From positions 1-39,296 of the IMG/VR virus record IMGVR_UViG_3300011113_000074: a stretch of DNA of 39,296 bases; one strand, given 5' to 3'. The position numbers and the translations under genes were made by a program. This DNA comes from a virus. Below are positions 1 to 11,329 of this stretch, one piece after another. Numbering within the stretch: position 1 is the first letter of the stretch; each line of letters begins with the position of its first letter. A model generated the notes under the pieces. It ran no database searches, was not told the origin of the DNA, and saw only the letters and a list, made by a program, of their open reading frames with translations.

Positions 1-1
1 T

Positions 2-91
2 GAATACGCAACTTTAACCGGCTCAGTAGCAGCACCATTGGCTAAATGGGCAGATAAGACAGAAACAGAGTATGGCATAGGCTCCAAATAA
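2..91 (+). CDS. Partial holin-like protein (C-terminal 29 residues)
   Basis: This is the 3' end of the gene complete at 38891-39103, read from GAA at 2 to the TAA at 89-91. It differs from the complete copy by three substitutions (Ile to Thr twice, Lys to Thr once), all nonsynonymous. It is a by-product of the terminal overlap and not a second gene. Confidence 0.8.
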   Translation, partial: EYATLTGSVAAPLAKWADKTETEYGIGSK

Positions 92-130
92 ATACCCCTA
101 ATTAGCCTTTAAAGGCCCTTTAGAGACACG

Positions 131-178
131 AAAACCCCCCGACCCAGTAGAGATACTAGGAAGGGGGGTCTTTTTTTT
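131..178 (+). terminator. Rho-independent terminator after the structural/lysis arm
   Basis: CCCCCC (135-140) pairs with GGGGGG (163-168). Inside, CC-AGTA pairs with TACT-GG and closes a GAGA (GNRA) tetraloop at 150-153. Eight T follow at 171-178. The A-run before the stem could give some termination in the other orientation. It separates the holin gene from the early promoter at 282. A short palindrome, GCCTTTAAAGGC (105-116), lies just upstream. Confidence 0.88.
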
Positions 179-281
179 GTTTTTCTATGCCCAAAAATGT
201 AGTAGGCGTATGAAGTCGAACACGCTTCCTACAGAGATATATCATCCCACATACCTAGGGTCTATAAACCAATACATACCC

Positions 282-310
282 TTGACTTCGAGACGAATTC
301 TATATATTAT
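282..310 (+). promoter_or_regulatory. Early plus-strand promoter (sigma-70 type)
   Basis: TTGACT at 282-287 and TATTAT at 305-310 are separated by 17 nt. The -35 hexamer and spacer length match the five minus-strand promoters of this phage. It would start transcription near 317, giving a leader of about 140 nt before the first gene at 458. Confidence 0.7.
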
Positions 311-457
311 TATATATATTATAGACCCCTTCGGGGTCTTATATATATTATATTATATATTATATATACAATTATACACTTAATAATTATTATAGGGGGA
401 ACGACTGACTACTATTGCCTACCCACCATAACCTGTGGATAAGTGTAAGATACTCCT
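288..457 (+). other. AT-rich leader with hairpin and DnaA box; candidate replication origin
   Basis: This non-coding stretch has three parts. About 90 bases of almost pure A/T (301-391) are interrupted by a GC hairpin, GACCCC-TTC-GGGGTC (324-338). A perfect DnaA box follows on the minus strand, TTATCCACA (TGTGGATAA at 434-442). An easily melted region beside a DnaA box, directly upstream of the replication genes, is the layout of a DnaA-dependent origin. Only one box is present, and no phage initiator was recognised. The hairpin would also sit at the 5' end of the early transcript and may protect or attenuate it. Confidence 0.5.
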
Positions 458-649
458 ATGACTATACAACTCGACGAATACACTCTGCCTGAACATATAT
501 CTTACTCAGCATTTACTACCTATATCGACTGTGGTTATCAGTACTACCTAGGTCGACTACTTAACTTACCTGAACAACCATCTGTTTGGTCGGTAGGTGG
601 CTCATCATTCCATACTGCTACTGAGATGTGGGACTTGGAGAATCTGTGA
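458..649 (+). CDS. N-terminal piece of split RecB/Cas4-like Fe-S nuclease
   Basis: This 63-residue ORF carries the N-terminal signature of RecB-family (Cas4/AddB-like) exonucleases: a cysteine at C25 that in the family binds the Fe-S cluster, and the GG..FH motif I with H52. The rest of the domain is in the ORF at 851-1456, in the same reading frame but after a stop and an intervening ORF. The TGA stop (647-649) overlaps the GTG start of the next ORF, a translational-coupling arrangement. Start ATG 458 has no clear Shine-Dalgarno. It could be half of a two-chain nuclease, or the result of gene damage or a sequence error. Confidence 0.75.
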   Translation: MTIQLDEYTLPEHISYSAFTTYIDCGYQYYLGRLLNLPEQPSVWSVGGSSFHTATEMWDLENL

Positions 650-879
650 TAACTATTACTAACGGAAAGGGTGAAACCACTATCGAGTGGGAAACCTATA
701 ATCAAATCATGCGTGACCGCTACATCAATGGCCTTGAAGAAACCTGGCATGTTGCTATTGGTTCTGTTGATTCTGCTATAGATAAAACTATGGATGAGAC
801 TGAATTGGTTGGCTTACTTCGTGCTAAAGTATTATTAAAGGAGGCGCTACGTGAGCACCGCTCAAAGTTTATGGGATAA
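646..879 (+). CDS. Small ORF inserted within the split nuclease
   Basis: This 77-residue protein has no recognised family. It is rich in charged residues and probably helical in its C-terminal half. The GTG at 646 is preceded by GGAG with 5-nt spacing and overlaps the previous stop as GTGA. Its 3' end overlaps the next ORF by 29 nt. The flanking ORFs together account for a complete RecB-like domain, so this reads as an insertion between motif I and motif II and not as part of the nuclease. A run of frameshift errors is the alternative, but each of the last two ORFs has its own ribosome-binding site. Confidence 0.55.
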   Translation: MITITNGKGETTIEWETYNQIMRDRYINGLEETWHVAIGSVDSAIDKTMDETELVGLLRAKVLLKEALREHRSKFMG

Positions 880-1456
880 GGCTTGGACTAAAGAGTCAGA
901 AGGCGTTGACTTAACCTTTGCTCGCGTTGGTGGCAGAACATCTAAAGCATTTCCTAATAGGGAGAATGTAGATTTCTGGCAACACACAGGACCTGAATGG
1001 GTTCAAGCATATATTGATTGGCGAAAAGCCAATACCGATTGGAAGATTTGGCACACTCCTGAAGGCGCACCCGCTATAGAGTTGGGGTTAACTCCAGTCT
1101 TTGCTGACGTACCAGTAAAGATGGTTCTCGACAGAGTGTTTGAAGTCAATGGTGAGTTAGTCGTGGTTGACCTCAAGACTTCACAACAAACCCCAACTAG
1201 TACCCTACAACTTGGATTCTACAAGTTAGGACTTAAACAAATCCTAGGTGTAGATGTCAAGTATGGTGCATACTGGATGGCAAGACAAGAGGGTACATCT
1301 GCTATGGTTGACCTTAGCGATTATACTGAGGAGAAACTTGATTACCTAGTGCGTGCCTTTGATAAAGCACGTAAGGCTGGTATATTTATTCCTAATACAA
1401 ACAACTGCAATCGTTGTGGGTTAACAGAGTACTGTCAATTCACATCGAAGAAATGA
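851..1456 (+). CDS. Catalytic piece of split RecB/Cas4-like Fe-S nuclease
   Basis: This 201-residue ORF holds the PD-(D/E)XK core: LDR (93-95), DLK (107-109) and QLGFY (120-124), the Q..Y motif of RecB nucleases. A C-terminal C-x2-C-x5-C (C186, C189, C195) would complete a four-cysteine Fe-S cluster with C25 of the 458-649 product. The start is GTG 851 with a near-perfect AAAGGAGG six or seven bases upstream, so it is translated on its own. Likely role: 5'-end processing or recombination exonuclease during phage DNA replication. It lacks motif I, so it probably needs the N-terminal piece. Confidence 0.8.
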   Translation: MSTAQSLWDKAWTKESEGVDLTFARVGGRTSKAFPNRENVDFWQHTGPEWVQAYIDWRKANTDWKIWHTPEGAPAIELGLTPVFADVPVKMVLDRVFEVNGELVVVDLKTSQQTPTSTLQLGFYKLGLKQILGVDVKYGAYWMARQEGTSAMVDLSDYTEEKLDYLVRAFDKARKAGIFIPNTNNCNRCGLTEYCQFTSKK

Positions 1457-1464
1457 GATAAACA

Positions 1465-1854
1465 ATGGCAAATGAAGACTGGAAACTACAAGTTTCCTAC
1501 AAGACACCATCAGGTGATATGATAAACATACGTGCTAACACTGCTGACGAATTATCGGTATTGTTAGAAGGTATTGGAGATTACTCTCCACAGATTGCGG
1601 CAACACAACAGAAAGTTGTAGGTGCTTATAACTTAATCCCTTTATCGACATCGAGTTCCACTCCAAGCACAAAGCCCTTGAAGTACTCCGCTCCAACCCC
1701 AGTGTCGGCAGCATCAGGTACAGCGTCGCCAGTGTGCAAGCATGGGGCTCGTATTTGGCGAGAAGGTATTAGTAAGGCGAGTGGTAAACCTTATGCATTC
1801 TGGTCTTGCCCATCACCACAGGGAACTCCAGACCAATGCAAACCAGTAAACTAA
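1465..1854 (+). CDS. Small protein with C-terminal zinc-finger motif
   Basis: A 129-residue protein in three parts: an N-terminal folded segment (about 1-58), a Ser/Thr/Pro-rich linker (about 60-88), and a C-terminal C-x-H ... C ... C motif (C91, H93, C115, C125) in the pattern C.HG...GKPY..W.C. Similar small proteins sit beside replication genes in actinophages, where a single-stranded DNA-binding or nuclease-accessory role is plausible. Neither role is shown here. It lies 8 nt after the nuclease stop and 43 nt before the ATPase gene. Confidence 0.7.
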   Translation: MANEDWKLQVSYKTPSGDMINIRANTADELSVLLEGIGDYSPQIAATQQKVVGAYNLIPLSTSSSTPSTKPLKYSAPTPVSAASGTASPVCKHGARIWREGISKASGKPYAFWSCPSPQGTPDQCKPVN

Positions 1855-1897
1855 AAAACTGGCATAAATCTTTTTACGGAACTAGAAAGGAACCTGG

Positions 1898-2680
1898 ATG
1901 CGTACACTTATCCGCTCAGTTGGTCGTGCCAGTATTGGTGGGGAACCATTACCATCTTGCTTTAAAGCATTCGAGTCGAACAAGATTATCATCCGTCGCT
2001 CCGAAGTTTCTATGTTCGCTGCAGCACCAGGAGTTGGAAAATCCACACTCGCATTAGCACTAGCATTAAAGATGAAGGTGCCAACACTTTACATCTCTGC
2101 TGATACTAATGCACATACAATGGCTATGCGATTAGCCTCTATGATTTCTGGAAAGAATCAAACAGATGTAGAAAGTATGTTGCAATCTGATATAGGTTGG
2201 ACTAAGGCTACTCTATCAAAGAGTAATCATATAGTCTGGTCATTTGAATCAGCACCAACATTACAAGATATTGATGAAGAGGTTCAATCTTTTGAAGAAC
2301 TGTGGGGTTGTTCACCCACACTTATTATAGTTGATAACTTAATGGATGTAGCCACTGATGGTGGTGAAGAGTTTGCTTCTATGAGAGCAATTATGAAGGA
2401 GTTGAAATATCTTGCACGTGCTACGAACTCGGCTGTTGTTGTTCTTCATCACACTAGTGAGGCTGTTCTTGGGACACCATGTCAGCCACGCTCTGCTATC
2501 CAGGGTAAGGTTGCTCAACTTCCAGCACTTATATGCACGCTTGGTGTTGTTGGAACGTCGATGGGAGTTGCACCTGTTAAGAACAGATACGGAAGAGCAG
2601 ATGCAGGTGGCGGACTAATGACTTGGATTGCATTTAATCCTGAGTATATGTTCGTTGACGATATACCAGAGAATCACTAA
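1898..2680 (+). CDS. RecA/DnaB-like ATPase (RepA-type helicase candidate)
   Basis: A 260-residue RecA-fold ATPase with Walker A AAAPGVGKST (41-50), Walker B LIIVDN (142-147) and a VVVLHH strand (180-185) typical of DnaB C-terminal and RepA/AAA_25 families. There is no separate N-terminal DnaB domain, so it resembles phage minimal helicases or recombination ATPases. It sits just upstream of the resolvase and primase genes, which fits a replicative helicase. AAGGAA precedes ATG 1898. A RadA/KaiC-like recombination role is the alternative. Confidence 0.85.
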   Translation: MRTLIRSVGRASIGGEPLPSCFKAFESNKIIIRRSEVSMFAAAPGVGKSTLALALALKMKVPTLYISADTNAHTMAMRLASMISGKNQTDVESMLQSDIGWTKATLSKSNHIVWSFESAPTLQDIDEEVQSFEELWGCSPTLIIVDNLMDVATDGGEEFASMRAIMKELKYLARATNSAVVVLHHTSEAVLGTPCQPRSAIQGKVAQLPALICTLGVVGTSMGVAPVKNRYGRADAGGGLMTWIAFNPEYMFVDDIPENH

Positions 2681-3355: not shown

Positions 3356-3701
3356 TTATGGTAAACGTAAAGGTTCAGCCTTTGAAACTGGTGTAGTTAA
3401 GTGGCTTAGGTCTAAAGATATATTAGCCGAGAGATTAACTAAGGCTGGTGCAAAGGATGAAGGTGATGTGGTTGCTTTCTTAGATGGGGAAGCAAACATA
3501 TTAGAATTAAAAGCAACAAAGAAAATAGACTTACCACAGTTCTGGAGGGAAGCAGAAGTAGAAGCAGAGAACTATGCTAAGGCTAGAAAATTAAAAGAAA
3601 TACCATACAAGTTTGTTATAATTAAACGTAGGCAAGCAGGTATAAATAAAGCATGGGTGGTGGAAGACTTTGAACAGTGGATTAAGAGGGCAGGCAAATG
3701 A
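3348..3701 (+). CDS. Hjc-like Holliday junction resolvase
   Basis: A 117-residue PD-(D/E)XK protein with E13 (AFE), D40 (EGDVV) and E-L-K at 53-55, followed by a W-R-EAE-x-E-NYA helix, the usual order of archaeal-type Hjc and phage resolvases. It would cut four-way junctions during replication or before packaging. ATG 3348 is preferred over an upstream in-frame GTG (3336) because the protein family begins with a basic segment and because of the short overlap with the previous gene. The stop overlaps an ATGA at 3698. Confidence 0.8.
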   Translation: MSSYGKRKGSAFETGVVKWLRSKDILAERLTKAGAKDEGDVVAFLDGEANILELKATKKIDLPQFWREAEVEAENYAKARKLKEIPYKFVIIKRRQAGINKAWVVEDFEQWIKRAGK

Positions 3702-4059
3702 CTTACCAGATATTAGAGAAATACTTATACACTACGGAGCACAAGTACGACAAGGACACGGGCAAGTTAATCTCAAGTGTCCATTCCACTCCGACACACA
3801 CCAATCAGGAAGTGTTAATCTCGACAATAACATATACATATGTTTCGCCTGCGGAGTCCAGGGTAACAGTTTACAAATTATTGCACAGCAGGAAGGGGTA
3901 GATATACGTGAAGCAAAGTCAATCGCAGAGAGAATTGTTGGACCAAGCAGCACAGAAATACGCAGCAAACATTTATCAGGCAGAGGACTACCTAAGAAGC
4001 AGAGGTATCTCAATGGAAGCAGCACGTCTGGCACGATTAGGCGTAGTAGGGGAGCCTGA
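3670..4059 (+). CDS. DnaG-type primase zinc-binding (CHC2) ORF
   Basis: This reading frame carries a CHC2 zinc finger (C37, H40, C58, C61 counting from TTG 3670) and the following helix of bacterial and phage primases, which recognise template. The start is unclear. TTG 3670 is in frame and lies inside the resolvase gene. The well-placed ATG 3698 (coupled to the resolvase stop, GAGGG upstream) is in another frame and would need one extra base in the next few codons. After about residue 85 the frame is only a shadow of the Toprim frame, so the useful domain ends near 3940. Confidence 0.7.
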   Translation: MNSGLRGQANDLPDIREILIHYGAQVRQGHGQVNLKCPFHSDTHQSGSVNLDNNIYICFACGVQGNSLQIIAQQEGVDIREAKSIAERIVGPSSTEIRSKHLSGRGLPKKQRYLNGSSTSGTIRRSRGA

Positions 4060-4531
4060 AATTGGACATGAAGCATTCAAAGGAAGATTATCCATACCGT
4101 ATATTACCAAGACTGGTGTTGTCGATATTCGTTTTCGTGCTCTTCATCCTGCTATTGAACCTAAGTACATGGGAATGACTGGTGCAGAAACAAAAATGTT
4201 TAACGTGTTAGATATAGAACGAGCAGGAGATTTCATAGGCGTATGCGAAGGTGAGTTAGATACAATTACTTTATCTAGTTGTGTCGGTATCCCTTGTGTT
4301 GGTGTGCCTGGTGCTAATAGTTGGAAGAAACATTATACTAGATTACTTGCTGACTTTGAAAGAGTATTTGTATTTGCAGATGGTGACCAACCAGGAAAAG
4401 AATTTGCTAATAGTTTAGCAAGAGAACTGCCAGTTACCATTGTGCAATTGTCTGATGGAGAAGATGTTAACAGTGCATATGTTAAGTATGGCGCAGACTA
4501 CATAAGAGAGAAGGCTGGTTTAAATGAGTAA
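3908..4531 (+). CDS. DnaG-type primase Toprim ORF
   Basis: A 207-residue protein with a primase core linker and a Toprim domain: CEGELD (113-118) and ADGDQPG (157-163), the metal-binding acidic residues for primer synthesis. It starts at GTG 3908 with AAGGGG upstream and overlaps the CHC2 ORF by 152 nt in a +1 frame. The two ORFs together equal one short DnaG-like primase. From memory, two-ORF primases are common in actinophages, so either reinitiation or +1 frameshifting is likely. A sequence error is also possible. Confidence 0.8.
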   Translation: MKQSQSQRELLDQAAQKYAANIYQAEDYLRSRGISMEAARLARLGVVGEPEIGHEAFKGRLSIPYITKTGVVDIRFRALHPAIEPKYMGMTGAETKMFNVLDIERAGDFIGVCEGELDTITLSSCVGIPCVGVPGANSWKKHYTRLLADFERVFVFADGDQPGKEFANSLARELPVTIVQLSDGEDVNSAYVKYGADYIREKAGLNE

Positions 4532-9211: not shown

Positions 9212-9240
9212 ATTATATCACTACCAATTCTAGAAGTCAA
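9212..9240 (-). promoter_or_regulatory. Minus-strand promoter P5
   Basis: Read on the minus strand: TTGACT (9240-9235), 17-nt spacer, TATAAT (9217-9212). The -10 is a perfect consensus. It overlaps the last codons of the amidotransferase gene and would drive the 9146-6916 genes including whiB. The leader contains a small hairpin, CTTGG/CCAAG. Confidence 0.85.
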
Positions 9241-10102
9241 GTGGTTCTTTACTATACCACTTACTAACTGTGTATCCATACTCATCTAATATCATTTTCT
9301 TATTACTAGGGTTATAGCATAAGCAATCTAAGAAGTTAGCCTCGCACTCGAAGCAACTCTCACACATTGGGCAATAGTATTCGTTCTCCCATGTATCTAT
9401 CATTGACTCACAATTAGGACACTCAAACTTACTGTCCTCATATATTGAAGGGTCGAAGTGGCTATCTGTTGCTACAATATCATAGACACTAGGCTCACCA
9501 TAGGTATAGTTATAGGTGGTGGTGCGTGGTGTTGATACGACAGGCTTGTAAGAGTTATTACTCCACCATATACCATTGTCGTCCCAACTACCTAGACTTT
9601 CATTGATAATATAAATCTTATACTGTGCGCTAGGGTCATTGGTCATAACTACTACCTTGTTGCCACTAGCCCATGAACTAATCATATCATATACATAGTC
9701 ATCATCAAGGGCAGACACGCCACCTAATCGTGGCAGTAATTCCTCTGCCATAATCCTAGTGTCGCTACGCTTATCACCTTTAGGTATGTGAATATCTAAC
9801 ACACCATTGTGGGCTAAATAAGTATCATGCTCACCTACTACCTTAAAGGGGTGGCAGTTGAGTTCGTTCTTAACACCATGAGTAGCATACCTAGCGTGCC
9901 ACATAGCGTAGCCACTAGGGTATTGCTCACGCAATTCTAAGAACCTAGCAATAGACTTCTTAGCAGACATACTACGCTCAGATATGATACCTGAACCAGT
10001 ATCTATCGCAAAGCCAAAGCCATGTGGGTTCTTGCACGCACCCATCTTTAGGTCATCTTTACTCGGTGTGGAATTAGGATTACACACCACTAGCAAACAC
10101 AT
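9230..10102 (-). CDS. Class II glutamine amidotransferase-like protein
   Basis: A 290-residue Ntn-hydrolase of the GATase class II type: Cys2 as nucleophile after Met removal, RYATHG (71-76), HNGVL (98-102) and SDT (113-115), the residues that bind glutamine and release ammonia. After a variable middle, the C terminus holds zinc-ribbon pairs (C228, C231, C244, C247, C250, C253). It lies 12 bp after the amidoligase gene. In the amidoligase systems described by Iyer and co-workers, such GATases occur with COOH-NH2 ligases. It could supply ammonia, remove gamma-linked amides, or edit the ligase product. Confidence 0.8.
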   Translation of the reverse strand: MCLLVVCNPNSTPSKDDLKMGACKNPHGFGFAIDTGSGIISERSMSAKKSIARFLELREQYPSGYAMWHARYATHGVKNELNCHPFKVVGEHDTYLAHNGVLDIHIPKGDKRSDTRIMAEELLPRLGGVSALDDDYVYDMISSWASGNKVVVMTNDPSAQYKIYIINESLGSWDDNGIWWSNNSYKPVVSTPRTTTYNYTYGEPSVYDIVATDSHFDPSIYEDSKFECPNCESMIDTWENEYYCPMCESCFECEANFLDCLCYNPSNKKMILDEYGYTVSKWYSKEPLDF

Positions 10103-10114
10103 ACAACTCCTCTC

Positions 10115-11329
10115 TTACGCATTGACTAACTCTTTACTGTTGATACTTAATGAGCGTACTTTGGACATACGCTCATATAAGTCAGGGTAGAAGCCATTGT
10201 TGGCTTCCACATATTCATAGAACCAATCCCAACCTAGCATACCTATCTTTACATCTGATAAGGTAAGGTTGCGAGTATATTCTATACTAGCATGTGCTAA
10301 TTGTATAGCACTACGGACACCGCTTGGCTTAGTAGTCCCTCTAAAGAACCTAAGTTCTAGCGTGTGTTCGTTCTGCGTATTTACCGCAGAATATCTCTCG
10401 GTGTTCACCTGTCTAGGACTAGCCACCTTATCGGCTAGGGTGAAGTATGGTCTGTCGTACTCATCATACTTCCACACATCATTGAACTTGGCGTAATCTG
10501 ACTTACGACCAGCAAACTTCATCATCTCAGGTGCGTTCTTATAGATTAGCGTTAGCCACCTATGAGTATGAGCACCACCCTTGAACCCTGCCCTACTTAC
10601 ATGTATATGTAATCCGCAACTCTTAGCGTCCCACGACCTTGCTTCTTGGTGTTCTCTTAGATAGTCTAAGGTCTTATCGAATAGTGGGAAGTCTGACCAA
10701 CTACTAAAGGATATAGGGTGAGATACTAACTCAAAGCCACGATACCCACCTTGATTTATACTACTATCCTGCTTCATATAAACCCAATTACCTATATTCT
10801 CTGATACATACCTAGCACTATCATCTAGGTCGCCTGACCTAATCTCCATCTCTAATTCTATTCCAAAGTATAGGTTATTCTTATCTTTACCTATAAACTT
10901 AGGGTCAGGCTTGTAAGAGTAGTCGTTGATAAGTCGAGAACCCCTACCGCCATCACCACAATTATTACACCCTCTAGCATAGTATTGGTCGCAATCATCA
11001 CAATAATTGCCATCACTCTCATAGCAACCCTCGCACCAATACTCACCCCTATCCTCGATATTGTACATGCTATCGTTCTCGGCATAGGTACAACTACATC
11101 TCTCGCAATAGTGAGTGTGGTTCTCCCAACAACTCTCACAATAATCACCGACACCCTCGACATAGTGGGTGTTATCATTGTGGCAATACTCCTCACAATA
11201 ATTACACCATGCTCGGCAACTCTCACATAGTAGGTCATCACCTACTATTACGAAGTCGTCCTCGCTAGTCGAACGATAATCACATGTGGCGCAACCATAC
11301 TCGGTGTCCTCATCATCATCTATCGGCAT
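10115..11329 (-). CDS. Zinc-ribbon-fused amidoligase (COOH-NH2 ligase)
   Basis: A 404-residue protein. Residues 1-130 contain a dense series of C-x2-C knuckles, probably several zinc ribbons. The rest matches the glutamine-synthetase-like amidoligase_2 family: FGIELEMEI (155-163), GFELVSHP (198-205), CGLHIHVSR (238-246) and ELRFFRGT (325-332), which build the ATP/metal site. The family forms amide bonds between carboxylates and amines in peptides or proteins. The many zinc ribbons suggest it docks on nucleic acid or a protein partner. GGGG lies upstream of ATG 11329. Substrate unknown. Confidence 0.85.
   Translation of the reverse strand: MPIDDDEDTEYGCATCDYRSTSEDDFVIVGDDLLCESCRAWCNYCEEYCHNDNTHYVEGVGDYCESCWENHTHYCERCSCTYAENDSMYNIEDRGEYWCEGCYESDGNYCDDCDQYYARGCNNCGDGGRGSRLINDYSYKPDPKFIGKDKNNLYFGIELEMEIRSGDLDDSARYVSENIGNWVYMKQDSSINQGGYRGFELVSHPISFSSWSDFPLFDKTLDYLREHQEARSWDAKSCGLHIHVSRAGFKGGAHTHRWLTLIYKNAPEMMKFAGRKSDYAKFNDVWKYDEYDRPYFTLADKVASPRQVNTERYSAVNTQNEHTLELRFFRGTTKPSGVRSAIQLAHASIEYTRNLTLSDVKIGMLGWDWFYEYVEANNGFYPDLYERMSKVRSLSINSKELVNA

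Follow-up and report, generated by a model that had tools for sequence, protein, structure and literature searches.

Two genes as the very probable chains of a Cas4/AddB-type phage exonuclease, with a probable guest gene at their seam

Introduction

How should three short overlapping genes be read when the motifs of a single exonuclease are shared between the outer two? This is the situation at positions 458 to 1456 of the window, by which we mean the whole stretch of DNA analysed, the 39,296 bases of virus record IMGVR_UViG_3300011113_000074. The first-pass annotation of this DNA took the locus for an Fe-S RecB/Cas4-like nuclease gene that had been split by the insertion of a small gene. Annotation pipelines easily misread such ORFs as errors, and merge or discard them. 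Our searches of the open-licence literature turned up no earlier description of a Cas4-like phage exonuclease made in two parts. In this work we have compared the locus with its viral relatives, asking whether the three ORFs are real genes, whether the outer two belong to one enzyme, and whether the middle one caused the split.

Results

The locus consists of the following features, all on the plus strand.

446..451, +, TAAGAT, a probable -10 box, 6 nt upstream of the start codon of ORF1 (ATG)
458..649, +, ORF1, predicted N-terminal exonuclease chain, 63 aa, with cluster Cys25 and motif-I His52
637..640, +, GGAG, ORF2 ribosome-binding site, encoded inside ORF1 (..DLEN..)
646..879, +, ORF2, probable guest gene, 77 aa, whose GTG start overlaps the ORF1 stop
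837..844, +, AAAGGAGG, ORF3 ribosome-binding site, inside ORF2
851..1456, +, ORF3, predicted C-terminal exonuclease chain, 201 aa, with catalytic and cluster residues

The coordinates, sizes and motifs given to these ORFs in the first-pass annotation were borne out. ORF1 (...YIDCGYQYYL...GGSSFHTATE...) does hold the motif-I His (His52) and the first cysteine (Cys25), and the catalytic D, the D-x-K, the Q..Y and three further cysteines all lie in the separate ORF3 (D94, D107-x-K109, Q120..Y124 and C186/C189/C195; motifs LDRVF, VDLKTS, QLGFY and CNRCGLTEYC), with the 77-aa ORF2 between them. The GTGA overlap reported for the first two ORFs is formed by the ORF2 start GTG (646-648) over the ORF1 stop TGA (647-649), which places ORF2 in the -1 frame, and the ribosome-binding sites credited to the second and third ORFs are likewise present. 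ORF2 ends at TAA 877-879 and ORF3 starts at GTG 851, after AAAGGAGG. A feature missed in that reading is that ORF1 and ORF3 share one frame in the window. Most of the window clade conserves the ORF2 start, the 29-nt ORF2/ORF3 overlap and AAGGAGG; in one subgroup the overlap is shorter and the ribosome-binding site weaker. In two relatives that do not carry ORF2 (L042 and L070), GGAG stands before ORF3. ORF1 itself has no Shine-Dalgarno. Among 41 distinct clade sequences upstream of ORF1, none had an SD-like motif and 40 had TANNNT 5-9 nt upstream, against a background frequency of 0.093 (9%) for this pattern, and the two counts together suggest that the ORF1 message may be leaderless. Upstream of the operon, at 290-390, there is a very AT-rich palindromic stretch in which GACCCCTTCGGGGTC forms a terminator-like hairpin.

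Both outer ORFs matched the same Pfam family, PDDEXK_1, above its cut-off of 22 bits, ORF1 over profile positions 1-47 (28.0 bits) and ORF3 over positions 81-247 (41.5 bits). ORF3 also matched Cas_Cas4 (33 bits, cut-off 22.7) and phrog_1870. The alignment to intact phage homologues that had been proposed as a check was carried out, and ORF1 plus ORF3 aligned end to end with the single-chain proteins of Phlei, Kykar, Eyeball, JSwag, RGL3 and CA1NRNZ, the seam lying past the helix of the motif-I His, in a segment that varies; the middle segment was found in frame in none of the homologues. The two chains together hold the complete motif set (motif-I His, D, (D/E)-x-K and Q..Y) and four cysteines, of which one is N-terminal and three are C-terminal. 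The ORF1 cysteine is kept in 270 of 270 loci, and the D-R, D-x-K, QL and Cys-triad patterns are all present in 275 of 279 ORF3 loci, each of the other four being without one pattern only. By these matches ORF1 is, at the level of sequence, the N-terminal part and ORF3 the C-terminal part of a single Cas4/AddB-like Fe-S PD-(D/E)XK exonuclease, in agreement with the family first proposed, and we infer from the same matches nuclease activity and a bound Fe-S cluster. As had been anticipated, such a cluster could be assembled only from two chains, with Cys25 in ORF1 and the Cys triad in ORF3. Another single-chain relative, the Cas4 exonuclease of Mycobacterium phage Dexes (L109, 1-1737), is interrupted by a long intein-like insertion, which falls at the catalytic D-x-K motif and not at the ORF1/ORF3 seam.

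Many independent viral contigs show the three-ORF arrangement again. Median dN/dS values, taken over 42 representatives, were 0.05 for ORF1, 0.23 for ORF2 and 0.09-0.10 for ORF3. All three ORFs are thus under purifying selection at the codon level. Because of this selection and of the recurrence in independent contigs, the arrangement is not a sequencing error, and the earlier preference for real genes holds.

The split extends well beyond the window clade. When loci were pooled from several searches, with some contigs counted more than once, 280 were split and 22 fused, and the split loci comprise 175 distinct junction sequences; of the relatives found in a distant search, 63 were split and 15 fused. 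The phages with a split exonuclease form a large, mostly freshwater group; no relatives were confirmed in bacterial genomes. Both halves are kept in every split locus whose contig reaches far enough upstream, and in the 13 loci where the C half stands alone the C-domain match always starts at most 476 nt from the contig edge. Many split relatives do not carry ORF2 (L042, L070-L081, L001/L110-L189, L242, L255, L267 and others). Two cistrons meet at ATGA in L042 and at TAATG in L070-L081, and in the clade of Planktophila phage LanE43AprE7 (L001/L110-L189) they overlap, by alignment, by 14-17 nt. LanE43AprE7 itself, a cultivated isolate that lyses its host (PMC10202952), has the split exonuclease and no ORF2. 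The frame relation of the two halves differs between lineages. The inserted gene, to which the split had been attributed, is therefore not needed for it: because relatives without ORF2 are equally split, the split is, as read from these comparisons, independent of ORF2 and, on parsimony, would be the older of the two. In all 175 distinct junctions the next start codon lies between -17 and +2 nt from the ORF1 stop, implying that the next gene would be translationally coupled to ORF1. Experiments elsewhere have established that reinitiation needs such proximity of start and stop, and that among overlapping gene pairs the subunits of heteromeric complexes are over-represented (PMC10666635).

On a 58-tip tree in which many branches are weak, the fused or split state changes at least 4 times. 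Some fused sequences are placed close to split groups or inside them, so that the split may have had more than one origin. One of these sequences, L273:2203-2961, is nested among split relatives; a deletion of 16 nt at its seam leaves a single open frame through both halves. It is an apparent natural re-fusion, provided that the assembly is right; L273 is one metagenome contig, and the fusion could be an assembly error.

ORF2 had no Pfam match and no significant PHROG match. Its AlphaFold2 model is a beta-hairpin followed by a two-helix hairpin (mean pLDDT 88.3), and a fold search with it returned nothing significant (best E 0.84 in PDB and 0.37 in BFVD). With no family or fold match of this kind, we rejected a homing endonuclease as its identity. 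The ORF2 family was found only at this seam (128 of 128 loci); it also occupies the seam of the more distant L288-L290, and ORF2 had no match in phage isolates. It is absent from L042 and from the L070 group, and since both are nested among ORF2 carriers of the window clade, this suggests that ORF2 was lost there.

Other genes occupy the seam elsewhere. The seam protein of L174, L180 and L275 is basic, coiled-coil-like and some 93-114 aa long, L146 has one related to it plus a second gene of 218 aa, and unrelated seam proteins occur in L240, L244, L252, L261/L280/L295 (Cys-containing), L263 and L303 (DUF7695). In ten seam proteins other than ORF2 we recognised no nuclease family. Guest presence or absence changes at least 13 times on the 58-tip tree, again with many weak branches, and near pairs with and without a guest are L252/L255, L275/L267, L244/L242 and the window/L042. 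By these comparisons the seam is a hotspot at which small unrelated genes appear to arrive and leave repeatedly.

Besides the exonuclease locus, the window carries WhiB, sigma-like, DnaB-like and primase genes. It resembles the 'Ca. Nanopelagicales' phages of PMC10202952. The named neighbours scanned near the exonuclease are replication genes, not cas genes, and no CRISPR context was seen. The primase, too, lies in two overlapping frames, a CHC2 zinc ribbon ORF (3670-4059) and then a Toprim ORF (3908-4531) in the +1 frame relative to it. These ORFs were scored as separate in 183 of the 185 loci tested, all with the common frame relation; the remaining two were scored 'same ORF' though their frames differ too, which may come from a first frame that continues past the contig end. 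The overlap may mark another replication protein made in two parts, or a site of frameshifting. On the minus strand, at 9230-11329, a class-II glutamine amidotransferase-like gene adjoins an Amidoligase_2 gene, possibly forming with it a peptide- or wall-modifying pair.

Discussion

We consider it very probable that ORF1 and ORF3 pair as the subunits of a heterodimeric Cas4/AddB-type exonuclease with an Fe-S PD-(D/E)XK fold, each encoding one chain, and that ORF2 is a separate guest. The heterodimer would probably serve the replication and recombination module of the phage. We propose that ORF1 would be translated from a leaderless message, and that the ribosome would reinitiate at the start overlapping the ORF1 stop, which is that of ORF2 here and that of ORF3 in guest-less relatives; the strong Shine-Dalgarno that lies within ORF2 would serve ORF3 as well. 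The chains are then predicted to assemble, with the ORF1 His and first Cys completing the active site and the cluster. The other cluster ligands would come from ORF3, so that the cluster may act as an inter-chain staple. Both this assembly and the chain-bridging cluster are what we infer from the conserved residues. ORF2 would be a protein of its own, tolerated at the seam.

ORF2 and the other seam proteins could be subunits or regulators of the nuclease, a reading compatible with two chains, and co-translation of the seam proteins with both halves and the confinement of the ORF2 family to this seam speak for it; we nevertheless hold it to be improbable, as close relatives lose ORF2 or replace it by unrelated proteins and its constraint is weaker than that of the nuclease halves. 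Since ORF2 is lost and replaced, we prefer cargo to subunit, and ORF2 is most likely a dispensable guest. A more far-reaching version, in which the nuclease is obligately two-chain, the bridging Fe-S cluster controls assembly and the lineage-specific seam proteins are exchangeable third subunits that tune it, is speculative and improbable as well.

It is unlikely that ORF2 broke an intact exonuclease gene, the history first proposed: in the window ORF2 lies exactly between the halves, and these are in the same frame, but the relatives that are split without it have the halves in different relative frames, and the other, unrelated genes at the same seam argue against its insertion as the cause. 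Less probable again is a programmed frameshift or other recoding event that joins ORF1 and ORF3, or all three ORFs, in one chain. The overlap in the LanE43AprE7 clade is a place where +1 frameshifting could fuse the chains, and some low-level fused product may be made in lineages with direct overlaps; however, we rejected frameshift fusion as a general rule, because the frame relation varies by lineage and, with a guest between, no single shift gives a fusion. Start codons are also conserved, and so, for most members of the window clade, is the strong ORF3 Shine-Dalgarno. A group I intron or an intein that holds ORF2 and is spliced out to restore one chain would suit an insert whose length is a multiple of 3 and that leaves the flanking ORFs in one frame, yet its probability is close to nil: no Rfam match was found in window positions 1-2000 and no intein domain, the insert of about 200 nt is coding and under protein-level selection, and relatives without it are still split. 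We give as little weight to pseudogene decay, or to a frameshift that came from sequencing or assembly. Neighbouring ORF pairs that cover one family often arise from indels, and most of our loci are metagenome assemblies, but the same kind of arrangement in 175 distinct junctions and in an isolate phage genome, with dN/dS far below 1 and intact catalytic residues, argues against both.

The two-chain reading with a guest predicts an Fe-S cluster and an active site built from two gene products across a broad phage group, which includes isolates infecting an abundant freshwater bacterium. The natural near pairs, fused, split and split with a guest, offer a test of why enzymes divide and why genes settle at their seams.

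The closest known enzymes are the single-chain phage Cas4-family exonucleases (phrog_1870) of mycobacteriophages and of Rhodococcus, Gordonia and Cutibacterium phages. They share the motifs and the four cysteines, and the gene from Kykar, Eyeball, JSwag and CA1NRNZ stands upstream of one for a DnaB-like helicase, as in the window. These enzymes are one polypeptide, whereas the present one has two cistrons, which in many relatives flank a guest. In Cas4 (Sso0001) and AddB, one N-terminal and three C-terminal cysteines bind a cluster called a staple (PMC3466216), and the same one-plus-three cysteines surround the RecB-type active site in Cas4 and in AddB/AdnAB-type domains. The nearest solved sequences are those of bacterial UvrD/Rep-type helicase-nucleases, e.g. 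6ppu. In Cas4, AddB and AdnAB, however, the nuclease is a single chain or a domain of a helicase-nuclease, in contrast to the two chains proposed here. Other phage enzymes are coded in pieces that reassemble, namely Aeh1 NrdA with mobE, T4 topoisomerase 60/39 and the Aeromonas phage gp43A/gp43B, and gp43 may be a case in which the split came first and another gene moved in afterwards (PMC2988022). Unlike in these systems, the guests at our seam are not recognisable homing endonucleases, and insert-less relatives do not have the intact gene that marks homing-endonuclease genes in pieces. The present enzyme would further differ from them in that its active-site and its cluster ligands are both divided between the chains, and its split is conserved over a wide group in which many genes have reused the seam.
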